Shown here: positions 6,392 to 20,799 of the stretch, one piece after another | How positions within the stretch are numbered: the first letter of the stretch is position 1 | How the letters are laid out: each line of letters starts with the position of its first letter | Assembly: GCF_018139565.1 (NCBI RefSeq) | Contig: NZ_JAGSPK010000004.1 | Coordinates: 124,001-188,000, forward strand | DNA length: 64,000 bases | From: Cognatundibacterium rivi | GTDB taxonomy: Bacteria > Pseudomonadota > Gammaproteobacteria > Burkholderiales > Burkholderiaceae_D | Direction of reading: 5' to 3' | Notes under the pieces: model-generated | The model's database searches: none | The model's input: only the letters and a program-made list of their open reading frames with translations | Told to the model about the DNA's origin: nothing | Program-made: the position numbers and the translations under genes

Positions 6392-6472
6392 AAAACAGGG
6401 GAGTATGTTGAGTTTTTGCTTAAATCTCATTGAATCTATTGGGTGTTAAAAAATACTCCCCCCAGTATATTT
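6392..6472 (+). repeat. Copy A of a dispersed ~80-bp repeat with operator-like ends
   Basis: The left arm is ACAGGGGAGTATG (6395-6407). The right arm is ATACT-CCCCCC-AGTAT (6453-6468), which pairs with the left arm as an inverted repeat and is itself a quasi-palindrome. Copy B (9005-9086) is homologous in the opposite orientation, including an interior AAATCTCA block. Copy C is at 20718-20799. Confidence 0.8.
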
Positions 6473-6565
6473 TGATGGATTGTGCTTGCTGTGATCTGCC
6501 GACAGACTGAATGCCGATGAGTCCCGAATGGAATCCGGAAGTGAAGCTGATAATGAAGCGACAAT

Positions 6566-6603
6566 AAAAAACGACGATCGCCATCGCGTATCGTCGTTTT
6601 TTA
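6566..6603 (-). terminator. Intrinsic terminator of the TonB receptor gene
   Basis: ACGACGAT (6571-6578) pairs with ATCGTCGT (6590-6597), with an A-run to the left and a T-run to the right, so it can act in both directions. It lies 46-83 bp past the receptor stop codon. Confidence 0.88.
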
Positions 6604-6648: not shown

Positions 6649-8784
6649 TCAGAAATCAAACTGTGCGGACAGTTTGTAAATCCGTGAGGCGCCGGGTAGC
6701 AAGTAGCCGCCGAGGGATTGCGTGACATCGCGCCAGTAGAATTTATCGAATGCATTGTCGATGTTGAAGCGCAAGGTCGTTGCGGTACCGCCTAAGCTGG
6801 TCACATAACGTGCCCCCAGATTCACCACCTGATAGCCGGGCACGATCACCGCGTTATCCGGCGAATAGGCTTTATTGCCGGAATATTGCCAGCTCGCGTT
6901 CAGATTCAACCCTTTCACTTGCGCCACGGCGTAGTCGGCATAGATGCTGGATTTCAGCTCAGGCACGTTCAACACGCGCTTGCCATCCAGTGCGGCATTC
7001 CCTGTGTCTTGCTGTTTCGCTTGGAGTGCGGTGATGCTGGCGCCGAGGTACAGTTGCGAACTCAACTTACCCTGTGCCGAGAGCTCCAGCCCGGTATGTT
7101 GTGCTTCGCCGTTTTGTACGTAGGCATTCGCGCTATTGGTGTATTCGAGCGGTTTCTGAATGCGGAAGACGGCCGCGGTCAGGCTCAGATCACGGCTCAG
7201 CTCGGTTTTGATACCGAATTCCAGTTGTTTCGAACGTGCCGGATTCAGCATCACATTCTGATTGCTGGTGCCGAAAGGCGCGATGCCGCCATGCTCCAGC
7301 CCTTGCGCAAACGAACCGTAGAAAGACATGGATTGCACAGGCTGATACACCAGCGCTGCATTCGACACCCAGGCATTGCGGTCGTAACCGGGGTTATCGA
7401 GCTGGCTGCGTGTTATGTGCAGGTGACGCACGCCAGCGTGCAGTTTCCAGCTGTCGCTGAGGCTGATGATGTCTTGCGCGAATACTGACCATTCTTTATC
7501 GGTACGACGCAAGCTGGCGGCGCCCGGCTGATTTGGCGAGGGTGCAACGGCGACCGGGTTATACAGATTGCTGGTGCCAGCGAAGTCGTAAATGTAATCG
7601 CCAAAATAATCTTTACGGCGCGAAGTCGATAAACCCGCTGCGAATGTATGAGCAAATACGCCGGTATTAAATTTACCACTGAGCAGCGCCTGCGTGCCGG
7701 TCATCGATTTCGATTCATTCAGGCTGCGATAGTCATACATATCGTAATCACCATTCGCGCAATAGCCCGGAGCCAGATTGGCAGAACTGCAGCCATACGG
7801 AAAAGCGGTGTAATCGTCGCGTTTGAATTCATGCTGATTGGCGGCAAAGCTGGCGTTCCAGTCCGCGTTAATTTTGTATTCAAAACGCAGACCCACATTG
7901 GTGTTGCGGGTATCGACCGGTTTCGCCCACGGCTGTTGATTCAGCATCATATCGGCGCTGATATTGCGTGGCAGATCGGTGCCATTCGTGAGCTGAAAGC
8001 CGGGTACTGAGAGCTGTGATTTGTGCTGGTAATCGAGATCGAGTTGCAGCAAAGCCTGCGACGACAAATGCCAGTCGAATGCGCCGGAAATAAACTGGCG
8101 CTCACCATTCGCCCCTTTGACATACGAGCGCAGGCGTTCGCCAGCGGCATTGATGCGATAACCGAATTGGCGGTCGGCGCTCATGCCGCCCAGATCGGCA
8201 CTGCCATACAAGGTGCCGCGTTCAGAGATTTCCGTGGTGATGCTGCGCAGCGCGGAAGCAGTCGGGCGCTTGGTCACATAATTCAGTATGCCGCCCGGCG
8301 TGGCAAAGCCGGACTGAAATCCGGAAATACCTTTGAGGATTTCAACGCGTTCTTTATTTTCCAGCGGAATCGAGGCATCGCCCGGAATCGCAAAACCATC
8401 TTTGCGATAGCTGCTGGAATTATCCATTGCAAAACCGCGAATCGAGAATTGCTCGGCATAGCCGATGGCGTTGTAGGCATCATTCACACTGGCATCGAAT
8501 TTCATCGCATCAGTGGTCTGGCGTATGCGCAAATCCTGCATTTGCAGCGTTGTCCATGCGGTGACAGAAAACGGCGTCTCGATCAGCGCGGTATCCAGAA
8601 AACCGGCGGCTTTGGTGCGTTCGGCTTTGGCATCGCTGAGGCGGTTGCCGCTGACGACGACTTCCGGTAATTCTTTTTCAGTCGATTGCGCGCGCGCCGT
8701 GTTCCATGCAAATGCCTGTGCGACAGCAAGCGCGATCAGTGATAAACGGCGTGGATGAAGATGATGTGCAGATGGGTTTTTCAT
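6649..8784 (-). CDS. TonB-dependent outer-membrane receptor under TPP riboswitch control, probable thiamin(-related) transporter
   Basis: A 711-aa outer-membrane beta-barrel receptor that imports its ligand with energy from TonB-ExbBD. A signal peptide (about 1-32, ending ARAQ) is followed by a TonB-box-like LPEVVVSG, a plug domain (about 55-165, with QFSIRGFAMDN and RVEILKGISGF) and a barrel ending in the outer-membrane signature SAQFDF. By sequence style it resembles siderophore receptors. However, a TPP riboswitch directly precedes it, so thiamin or a precursor is the more likely ligand. Start chosen at 8784: upstream in-frame ATGs lie inside the riboswitch, while this ATG has a GAGAG ribosome site and gives a clean signal peptide. 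No thi genes are in the window. Confidence 0.88.
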   Translation of the reverse strand: MKNPSAHHLHPRRLSLIALAVAQAFAWNTARAQSTEKELPEVVVSGNRLSDAKAERTKAAGFLDTALIETPFSVTAWTTLQMQDLRIRQTTDAMKFDASVNDAYNAIGYAEQFSIRGFAMDNSSSYRKDGFAIPGDASIPLENKERVEILKGISGFQSGFATPGGILNYVTKRPTASALRSITTEISERGTLYGSADLGGMSADRQFGYRINAAGERLRSYVKGANGERQFISGAFDWHLSSQALLQLDLDYQHKSQLSVPGFQLTNGTDLPRNISADMMLNQQPWAKPVDTRNTNVGLRFEYKINADWNASFAANQHEFKRDDYTAFPYGCSSANLAPGYCANGDYDMYDYRSLNESKSMTGTQALLSGKFNTGVFAHTFAAGLSTSRRKDYFGDYIYDFAGTSNLYNPVAVAPSPNQPGAASLRRTDKEWSVFAQDIISLSDSWKLHAGVRHLHITRSQLDNPGYDRNAWVSNAALVYQPVQSMSFYGSFAQGLEHGGIAPFGTSNQNVMLNPARSKQLEFGIKTELSRDLSLTAAVFRIQKPLEYTNSANAYVQNGEAQHTGLELSAQGKLSSQLYLGASITALQAKQQDTGNAALDGKRVLNVPELKSSIYADYAVAQVKGLNLNASWQYSGNKAYSPDNAVIVPGYQVVNLGARYVTSLGGTATTLRFNIDNAFDKFYWRDVTQSLGGYLLPGASRIYKLSAQFDF

Positions 8785-8786
8785 GT

Positions 8787-8825
8787 TGTACTCTCGGTTG
8801 CGATGAAGTACAGCGCGGGAGTACA
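8787..8825 (-). promoter_or_regulatory. Hairpin masking the ribosome-binding site of the TonB receptor
   Basis: On the transcript, TGTACTC (8825-8819) pairs perfectly with GAGTACA (8793-8787). The second strand overlaps the Shine-Dalgarno GAGAG and ends two bases before the ATG at 8784. This is a plausible expression platform for translational control by the TPP aptamer just upstream. The pairing is seen directly; the coupling to ligand is inferred. Confidence 0.55.
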
Positions 8826-8854
8826 CAAAAGGACGTGGCAGAGGCATGAACTTT

Positions 8855-8942
8855 GCGCTTCCCTTCGCTGGCATTATCCAGATCAGGTATAAGGGACTCT
8901 CTCACCCGGAAACAAAATTCCCAGGACCCCTAGCGAAGGCGC
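8855..8942 (-). promoter_or_regulatory. TPP riboswitch (THI element)
   Basis: The minus strand carries the conserved TPP aptamer core in order: TAGGGGTCC, a variable stem, GGGTGAGAGAGTCCC, ACCTGATCTGGATAATGCC and AGCGAAGGGAAGC. The CTGATCTGGATAATGCCAG and GCGAAGGGAAG blocks are near-invariant in TPP riboswitches. Thiamin pyrophosphate binding normally shuts off the downstream gene. The only gene downstream is the TonB receptor at 8784-6649, whose start codon lies 70 nt after the aptamer. Confidence 0.95.
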
Positions 8943-8969
8943 TACTTTAACATGAATCGTTTTGCGCCA

Positions 8970-9001
8970 TCAAAAAAAGCACACCAGGTGTGCTTTTTTG
9001 C
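8970..9001 (-). terminator. Intrinsic terminator of rarD
   Basis: GCACAC-CAG-GTGTGC flanked by an A-run and a T-run. It can work in both directions. Reading on the minus strand it follows rarD and isolates rarD transcripts from the riboswitch leader. Confidence 0.88.
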
Positions 9002-9004
9002 CTC

Positions 9005-9086
9005 AAATATACTGGGGGGAGTATATTTTAAACCCCAGTAAATACGCTGAGATTTGATGCAAACAGGCTCATACTCCCTGTTTTTT
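9005..9086 (-). repeat. Copy B of the dispersed ~80-bp repeat, overlapping the 3' end of rarD
   Basis: On the plus strand, ATACT-GGGGGG-AGTAT lies at 9009-9024 and CATACTCCCTGT at 9070-9081. This is the reverse orientation of copy A, with matching interior (TTTGCATCAAATCTCA on the minus strand). The outer arm overlaps the rarD stop codon at 9069-9071, so the repeat supplies the last codons of rarD. Confidence 0.8.
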
Positions 9087-9953
9087 GGCTGCGAAGCTGA
9101 TCCACATGCCTTCCATCGAATACACCAGCAGCGCTGCCCAGATCGCCATGAAGCCAAGCAGTTTATGTTGATCAAATGCCTCATGAAACACCCAGATGCC
9201 GAGCAATAATTGCACACTAGGCGCGATATATTGCAGCAGACCGAGTGTCGTCATCGGAATCCGCCGCGCACCGGCGGCAAACAGTAACAGTGGAATCGCC
9301 GTGATCGGGCCGCTGAGCGCGATCAGTATCTGCATGTGACTGTCTTGCGTCATAAACGCGTTTTGCCCGTGTAAAGTCAGCCACGCGAGATAAGCAAAAG
9401 CGAATGGGAACAGCAGTATCGTTTCCAGCGATAAGCCTTCCAGTGCGCCCAGCGCTGAGGTTTTACGCAATAAACCGTAAGTGCCGAAGGTGATCGCCAG
9501 CGCCAGAGCGACCCAGGGCAGATGACCGGTCTGCCAGGTCAGCCAGGCCACGCCGAGTGCGGCAAAGGCGACGGCCAGCCATTGACCGGGACGCAGCCTT
9601 TCCCGCAGCACCGCCGAGCCAATCAGAATATTCACCAGTGGCGTAATGAAATAACCCAGACTTGCATCCACCACATGACCGTCGTTGACCGCCCAGATAT
9701 AGATAAACCAGTTGCTCGATAAGAGCAGGGCGCTGAGCGTAAAACCGGCAATCACTTTTGGCTGACGAAAAGCCGCGCTCAGCCACGACCATTGCTGGCG
9801 CCAGGCGAGTACCGCACCTAAAAACAGCAGCGACCATAACATGCGGTGGATCAGAATTTCTAAGGCGGGAATGCTGTGCAGTGCTTTGAAATACAGTGGA
9901 AACAGGCCCCAGACGATATAAGCCGAGCCTGCGAGGAAGATGCCTTTACGCAT
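9069..9953 (-). CDS. rarD: RarD family EamA-type transporter
   Basis: A 294-aa inner-membrane protein with about ten hydrophobic segments in two EamA repeats, close to E. coli RarD in length (296 aa). It starts MRKGIFLAGSAYIVWGLFPL, which is typical of RarD. The family belongs to the drug/metabolite exporter superfamily; its physiological substrate is poorly defined. The final codons (KKQGV) are encoded by repeat copy B. It lies 133 bp from the BtuF-like gene upstream and may share its transcript. Confidence 0.85.
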   Translation of the reverse strand: MRKGIFLAGSAYIVWGLFPLYFKALHSIPALEILIHRMLWSLLFLGAVLAWRQQWSWLSAAFRQPKVIAGFTLSALLLSSNWFIYIWAVNDGHVVDASLGYFITPLVNILIGSAVLRERLRPGQWLAVAFAALGVAWLTWQTGHLPWVALALAITFGTYGLLRKTSALGALEGLSLETILLFPFAFAYLAWLTLHGQNAFMTQDSHMQILIALSGPITAIPLLLFAAGARRIPMTTLGLLQYIAPSVQLLLGIWVFHEAFDQHKLLGFMAIWAALLVYSMEGMWISFAAKKQGV

Positions 9954-10086: not shown

Positions 10087-10973
10087 TTACTTTTCTCTGG
10101 CTGCGGCAATGTGTTTGCAGAGTGCTTCGGTGCCATCGAGTATGCGCGGCCCGGCGCGGTTCAGCCAGTCGCCATTCACCGCGTACAAATGATTTTTCTT
10201 TGCCGCAGTCAGCACAGAAAACTGCCGCCACTCATTCAGGCTGTCGGTGTTGCTGCCACCGGTGATGATGGCATCCGGGTTCGCTGCCAGCAAAGCTTCC
10301 ACAGAAACGGTGGGGCTGATTTCTTTCAGCGCACCAAAGACGTTTTTGCCGCCGCATAAGCGTATCGCTGCCGAGACCATGTGCGTATCATTGAGCGTCA
10401 TCAGCGGCTTGCGATTGACCTGATAGAAAACACTGACCGGTTTGTCGCGTGCGCTCTGATATTGTTGCTGCAGCAGCGACAGGCGGGAACGGAATTTGTC
10501 GGCCGCCGCTTTGCCTGCGGCAGGCGTGCCAGCCAGTATCGCCAGTCGTTCAAGCGAGGTGGCTACCATCTCATAATCGCGTGGTTCGCTTTCAAAAACG
10601 GTGATGTGATTGTCGCGTAATTTGTTGACCAGCAATTTACCGCTACCTGTGCCCCAGACGACAACAAGATCAGGTTTTAAGGCCAGCAATTTTTCCAGAT
10701 CTAAAGCAAAGACGTTGCCGACCGATGGTAATGCCTTTGCGGCTGCCGGAAAATCACTGTAATCGCTGACGGCAACGATGCTTTTTGCGGCGCCAGCTTC
10801 AAATAATAATTCGGTCGCATGCGGCGCCAGACTAATGATTCTTTGCGCCGGTTTGTCGAGCGTAATCGTACGCTGCGCATCGTCTTTGACACTGACCGCC
10901 GCCAGACTGCCAGCGCTGACTAGCAGTGCAGGCAGCAGGCAGACGCTGCTAATCAGCATGCGCAGTGATGTCA

Positions 10974-10974
<1 letters not shown>
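10087..10974 (-). CDS. BtuF-like periplasmic cobalamin-binding protein of an ABC importer
   Basis: A 295-aa periplasmic binding protein of the vitamin B12/Fe-siderophore class. A signal peptide (about 1-25) is followed by RIISLAPHATELLFEAGA, the BtuF/FhuD-type entry motif, then VSDYSDFP, the LLALKPDLVVVWGTG segment and a second lobe with GGKNVFG and AANPDAIITGG. The permease and ATPase partners are not adjacent. The start codon overlaps the panC stop by one base (TGATG), so it is translationally coupled to panC. B12 as ligand is likely but unproven; no cobalamin riboswitch is seen here. Confidence 0.78.
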
Positions 10975-20717: not shown

Positions 20718-20799
20718 AAAACAGGGGAGTATGTTTAATTTTCACCTATATGTCCTAATAAAATAAAGGGGCTTTAAATATACTGGGGGGAGTATTTTT
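20718..20799 (+). repeat. Copy C of the dispersed ~80-bp repeat, with right arm inverted
   Basis: The left arm ACAGGGGAGTATG matches copy A exactly (20721-20733). The right arm is ATACT-GGGGGG-AGTAT (20780-20795), the reverse complement of what copy A has at that position, so both arms now read GGGGAGTAT in the same direction. The spacing between arms is nearly the same. It lies about 170 bp upstream of the SIMPL gene. Confidence 0.75.

Follow-up and report, generated by a model that had tools for sequence, protein, structure and literature searches.

The receptor gene was located on the minus strand of the window (the whole 64,000-nt stretch of DNA that was analysed), with an MCP gene downstream and rarD upstream. 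Its unit was made up of the following features, all on the minus strand.

6564..6603, minus strand: hairpin AAAAACGACGAT...ATCGTCGTTTTTT resembling a terminator, downstream of the receptor gene (read from the sequence)
6649..8784, minus strand: TonB-dependent receptor (711 aa) with a predicted role in the transport of thiamin or a vitamer (Pfam, TIGR01783, AlphaFold2)
8787..8825, minus strand: candidate expression platform, 7-bp helix between the anti-SD UGUACUC (8825-8819) and GAGUACA (8793-8787), over the Shine-Dalgarno (SD) region
8843..8941, minus strand: TPP riboswitch aptamer (THI element) in the leader of the receptor mRNA (cmscan, RF00059)
8944..8973, minus strand: candidate sigma-70 promoter, TTGATG (8973-8968), 18-nt spacer, TAAAGT (8949-8944) (read from the sequence)
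8972..8999, minus strand: terminator-like hairpin AAAAAAGCACACC/TGGTGTGCTTTTTTT behind rarD, setting the receptor unit apart (read from the sequence)
9069..9953, minus strand: rarD, of the EamA/DMT family, adjacent on the upstream side and with a terminator of its own (TIGR00688, 230.5 bits)

Because terminator-like hairpins, both read by eye, are present before the promoter region and after the receptor stop, the receptor transcript looks monocistronic. The hairpin behind rarD was absent from the output of the consensus scan, and the candidate promoter was missed by a stricter consensus promoter scan; a -10-like sequence (TTAAAGT, GTAAAGT or TTAAACT) recurred directly upstream of the aptamer in relatives. 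The synteny of rarD and the receptor was conserved in much of Undibacterium. RarD was considered as an inner-membrane partner and rejected, as the synteny is limited to that genus, the gene has its own terminator, and receptor loci of other genera lack it.

The initial annotation had described a near-canonical TPP aptamer in front of a TonB receptor of siderophore type, and both parts of this description were confirmed, the aptamer to within a few bases of the position given. The only riboswitch found by cmscan in the window was a full-length match to RF00059 (model positions 1-105) at 8941-8843 on the minus strand, with a score of 63.6 bits (gathering score, 54.3) and an E-value of 3.8e-10, separated from the receptor start by 59 nt. 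The likely receptor start is the ATG at 8784, with GAG at -9, as in relatives, which gives a protein of 711 aa; the start listed for the open reading frame, ATG 8874, was discarded, as it falls within the aptamer. In the predicted protein, both the Plug domain (PF07715) and the beta-barrel domain (PF00593) scored over the Pfam cut-off, and a TonB-box-like sequence, PEVVVSG, was read near the N-terminus. The AlphaFold2 model had a pLDDT of 81.9 and a pTM of 0.81. The receptor thus shows the features by which TonB-dependent transporters are recognised, a plug, a 22-strand barrel and a putative TonB box. Its score against TIGR01783, "TonB-dependent siderophore receptor", was 346.5 bits (cut-off, 223.5), and the nearest solved structures, found by sequence and also by Foldseek with the model, were FemA, BauA, FoxA, and FhuA (22-26% identity). 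The receptor shares its fold and subfamily with these four proteins, but differs from them by its own conserved residues and by a regulation and gene context that are unlike those of iron uptake.

The 7-bp helix of the expression platform was compared with the leaders of related receptors. At the equivalent place, most Undibacterium leaders carried GUUUGCUC/GAGCAAAC, with GAG at -9, a helix in which two pairs are altered on both sides relative to that of the window. Some relatives showed a helix over the SD with a mismatch at one or two pairs, and a longer helix of different sequence was present in a single sub-clade. The helix score was equalled in 9.5% of shuffles when the window leader was taken alone, and in 0-3.5% of shuffles for most relatives with a full helix. 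When the aptamer was forced, the mean predicted accessibility of the SD in 33 related leaders decreased from 0.23 to 0.14 (23 down and 3 up; Wilcoxon p 4e-4). For the window leader, the SD was predicted to be paired in both states, with an accessibility of 0.01, and of 0.00 with the aptamer forced; the minimum-energy fold of the leader, compared with shuffles, was uninformative (z 0.00). Overall, the predicted SD-covering helix is conserved in most close relatives, and translational repression of the receptor by TPP appears likely.

To describe the spread of the riboswitch-receptor association, we used the best 80 orthologs in a scan of named genomes (53-96% identical), which belonged to Undibacterium, Noviherbaspirillum, Janthinobacterium, Duganella, Rugamonas, Pseudoduganella, Massilia, and Burkholderiales MAGs; the closest was that of Undibacterium aquatile (96%), and the genome that contains the window is Undibacterium-like. 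A TPP core was present directly upstream in 79 of these 80 orthologs, a retention that makes the association more than chance. The covariance model confirmed the riboswitch at all seven non-Undibacterium loci tested and, independently, at most same-genus orthologs. The one exception was a groundwater genome (G021, locus L096), in which an intact receptor gene was found with no trace of a riboswitch between rarD and the start. This genome, in which the riboswitch was lost, the receptor is intact and no PnuC gene is present (L096/L025), constitutes a natural test of an unlinked receptor.

The association was also observed in another order, in two genomes (G242 and G351) whose receptors are about 36% identical to that of the window; their riboswitches were missed by the regular expression for the TPP core and both were found by the covariance model. 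When 65 receptors were placed in a tree, a single clade (SH-aLRT 99) held all those with a TPP link, including the receptors of G061, G069, G242, and G351, and the TPP label required 2 changes, versus a mean of 22 after shuffling, which fits one gain and one loss. Scanning a further 20 loci of siderophore-type receptors returned no riboswitch. Moreover, 33 receptor positions carried residues that were invariant within the TPP clade and uncommon elsewhere, mainly in the plug loops (97-127), in regions 257-290 and 324-354, and in the last loop (685-694). On the evidence of the tree, the common ancestor of one receptor clade already had the riboswitch-receptor link.

Among the genes adjoining the receptor in other Oxalobacteraceae genera, we found a PnuC-family permease (PF04973) and a kinase-only NadR-like protein (AAA_28/RNK, about 178 aa) at 51 of 51 loci, counts that stem from one family and are not independent events. 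The same pair was present beside the receptor in four Undibacterium loci, and the arrangement was mostly convergent, within about 1 kb. Two other arrangements were observed: in the TPP-controlled operon of G242 and G351, PnuC is encoded on the receptor strand and its reading frame shares 4 nt with the end of the receptor gene; and in G061, the genes for PnuC and the kinase immediately precede the riboswitch and the receptor, all in one orientation. The occurrence of PnuC and the receptor in three arrangements in three lineages argues for a functional link. Among genomes of the host family that were at least 90% complete, PnuC was present in 34 of the 34 with a TPP-linked receptor versus one of the five without (p 6e-5, shared descent being ignored).

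In the host genome, the PnuC-kinase pair was absent from the window and located 160 kb from the receptor, with the kinase gene at 293.2 kb of contig C10. The initial annotation had described the receptor as standing alone, without thi genes or an inner-membrane partner. This holds for the neighbourhood, which contains MCP and rarD and was locally rearranged in Undibacterium, but neither for the rest of the genome, with its thi operon and its distant PnuC-kinase pair, nor for the relatives in which the pair adjoins the receptor. The pair is preceded in the host genome by a second, different TonB receptor (TIGR01782-like, below cut-off; L064 6673-8907, contig C10), and receptors of this type were also observed beside the pair at L050, L055, and L058, with no known riboswitch.

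Two TPP riboswitches only were identified in the host genome: that of the receptor leader and one upstream of thiC, which precedes a thiC-thiG-thiD-thiE operon; thiG was called from its operon position and sequence, with no model above cut-off. Because this TPP-controlled operon is complete, the host is expected to be prototrophic for thiamin, so that uptake would spare synthesis. ThiL was also present, and no thiamin pyrophosphokinase (TPK) was found in the host genome or in any of the ten genomes checked. ThiL phosphorylates thiamin monophosphate (TMP). Since it acts only after the kinase step, imported thiamin would need a thiamin kinase. The gene content of G061 bears directly on this point: ThiC, ThiE, and thiamin pyrophosphokinase were not found in this genome, which retains ThiL, NadA, and NadC and carries the riboswitch, receptor, PnuC, and kinase together. 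It would therefore need outside thiamin and a thiamin kinase, rather than nicotinamide riboside.

Taken together, the riboswitch clade, the three arrangements of PnuC and the gene content of G061 strongly support the earlier proposal that the receptor serves uptake of the thiamin family across the outer membrane. We consider it probable that the receptor is a TPP-repressible, TonB-driven importer of thiamin or a close vitamer, feeding a PnuC-family permease acting as PnuT, a kinase, and ThiL. Synthesis of the receptor would proceed at low TPP and stop at high TPP: binding of TPP would close the aptamer recognised by the covariance model, and the closed aptamer would favour pairing of the conserved anti-SD with the Shine-Dalgarno sequence, blocking translation. 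Judging from gene context, thiamin would then cross the inner membrane through the PnuC-family permease, be trapped as thiamin monophosphate by the kinase-only NadR-like protein, and be turned into TPP by ThiL. The siderophore subfamily score, the siderophore-receptor folds, and the nicotinamide riboside family names of the partners were counted against this explanation, as were the lack of a TPP riboswitch on the partner genes in Oxalobacteraceae, their place behind another TonB receptor in the host, the branching of the PnuC tree, and the small average effect of the forced aptamer on the SD. Under it, a "siderophore receptor" annotation found across the Oxalobacteraceae becomes a testable vitamin B1 importer, and freshwater and soil prototrophs would keep a repressible B1 uptake route; auxotrophs such as G061 sharpen the prediction.

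As for the NadR-like protein, we see about an even chance that it functions as a thiamin kinase distinct in origin from ThiK and TPK, which would complete a receptor-PnuT-kinase-ThiL salvage route in Oxalobacteraceae and their kin. It is thus a candidate for the missing thiamin kinase required by bacteria that possess ThiL and no pyrophosphokinase in order to use imported thiamin; if so, the salvage route is now mis-annotated as siderophore and nicotinamide riboside uptake. The competing explanation, in which PnuC and the kinase simply salvage nicotinamide riboside, adjoin the receptor by chance, and leave the inward transport of thiamin to another permease, deserves serious consideration, although we do not favour it. 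It agrees with the family names of both proteins, with the position of the pair behind a different TonB receptor in Undibacterium, and with the absence of a TPP riboswitch on the PnuC or NadR-like kinase genes in the Oxalobacteraceae loci examined. However, most other PnuC of the order adjoin a full NadR of 343-378 aa with an adenylyltransferase half (L068, L070, L072, L073, and L082), whereas the receptor-linked protein consists of the kinase half only and does not have the two domains (adenylyltransferase and kinase) that define NadR. A kinase-only protein without the receptor was found at L069 (G049), which is an exception. Nor does a chance neighbourhood readily account for the inclusion of PnuC in the TPP operon of G242 and G351, for its absence from G021, where the riboswitch was lost, or for the retention of the set in G061, which has NAD synthesis and otherwise no thiamin kinase.

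The PnuC sequences bear on the same question. A motif, WxxWIxVDVxY, was common to the in-operon PnuC of G242 and G351 and to the Oxalobacteraceae PnuC, which also argues against an ordinary nicotinamide riboside pair; its D was replaced by N in four of the six comparison PnuC and in the crystal-structure PnuC, and its Y was found in none of the six. The PnuC tree, which has long branches, did not group the PnuC of the TPP operons with those of the Oxalobacteraceae.

The substrate is probably intact thiamin rather than another vitamer. Import of precursors or degradation products of thiamin (HMP, thiazole, or thiamin phosphates) instead of the intact vitamin would be compatible with the control of precursor salvage by TPP riboswitches in other cases, and the host has ThiD and ThiE to use precursors. 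We nevertheless regard it as unlikely, as HMP or thiazole would be useless to G061, which has kept the set without ThiC and ThiE, and as PnuC-family PnuT is described in the literature as a thiamin transporter. The outer-membrane substrate may include thiamin phosphates.

A true siderophore receptor, placed under TPP control for indirect reasons, would explain the TIGR01783 score and the closest solved structures. This seems very improbable, since no Fur-box-like site was found within 3 mismatches across the entire window (sequence consensus scan), the TPP-linked receptors fall into a clade of their own, separate from the siderophore-type receptors that lack this link, and have distinctive conserved residues, and the genes beside them are putative thiamin-pathway partners. 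Finally, a decayed or non-functional riboswitch copy, for which nothing speaks beyond the single lineage with a loss (G021), is scarcely credible given the conservation of core and expression platform in 79 of the 80 orthologs.

A TPP-controlled thiamin receptor is of an already known, mostly predicted kind, and the new part is the candidate NadR-like thiamin kinase. The prediction of THI-controlled TonB receptors located beside PnuT goes back to 2002 (Rodionov), and in 2009 such receptors were assigned to siderophore-type clusters (Mirus, PMC2771747). In Bacteroides thetaiotaomicron, genetic work has shown that BT2390 (OMthi), whose partners are PnuT and Tnr3, reduces the amount of thiamin needed by a mutant in its biosynthesis (PMC5613172). 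By its regulation and context, this system resembles the present one: a TPP-riboswitch-controlled receptor, a PnuC-family inner-membrane partner (predicted here), and a phosphorylating enzyme adjoining that partner, in a thiamin-synthesising host. However, the enzyme is the pyrophosphokinase Tnr3 in the Bacteroides system, in place of which a kinase-only NadR-like protein is found here. Receptors named omr1, with a riboswitch, have been described in SAR86 and Flavobacteriales from marine MAGs (PMC10881298); like the receptors predicted earlier, they share with the present clade an upstream THI element and a siderophore-like receptor, and their co-localised PnuT may correspond to the PnuC-family gene that adjoins the receptor in the other Oxalobacteraceae genera, though not in the host genome. 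They differ in that the present receptors form a family-wide Oxalobacteraceae clade with a convergent PnuC-kinase pair. Within the Burkholderiales, a TPP-controlled thi operon of Variovorax includes a permease and a TonB receptor-like gene (PMC10409787). As described, it is similar to the present system in its TPP control and in a TonB receptor predicted for thiamin, but the receptor gene lies within the biosynthetic operon, whereas the present receptor appears to form a separate monocistronic unit. In Burkholderia and Ralstonia, a study reported finding no TPP-controlled transporter genes (PMC3766115). In a limited literature search, which is weak as evidence, no description of the Oxalobacteraceae clade or of a NadR-like thiamin kinase was found.

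Other TPP-linked loci were observed in relatives. In G069 (L036 4544-8753), two divergent TPP riboswitches were present, one leading to the gene of an SSF sodium/solute symporter (ThiV-like) and the other heading genes for an SDR and an NtaA/DmoA-family FMN monooxygenase; these genes possibly represent TPP-controlled vitamer salvage chemistry. In G053, a genome without ThiC, a sub-threshold TPP match (45.9 bits) precedes the ORFs of an SSF-like symporter and of one more transporter-like protein (L195 7050-10108).

Several other sequences were noted in the window. A palindrome near the promoter, TATACTGGGGGGAGTATA, was considered as a metal-sensor operator; since it occurs in 64 strand-biased genomic copies as part of a dispersed repeat of about 85 bp, it was rejected as a regulatory site for the receptor. 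The palindrome ATACTGGGGGGAGTAT, at window positions 6452-6469, 9008-9025, and 20779-20796, closes this unit, which starts with ACAGGGGAGTATG. A genome-wide count gave 64 perfect copies of it (control, 0), distributed very unevenly between the strands of individual contigs (17+/2- on C5 and 0+/11- on C9), and the unit resembles a replichore-oriented REP/MITE family. In addition, a gene encoding a BtuF-like periplasmic binding protein (10087-10974) adjoins panC, an arrangement conserved in much of Undibacterium, with no ABC permease nearby; and two identical tandem tRNA genes (1257-1329 and 1387-1459) were present, with a Lys-like anticodon region, CUUUUAA.
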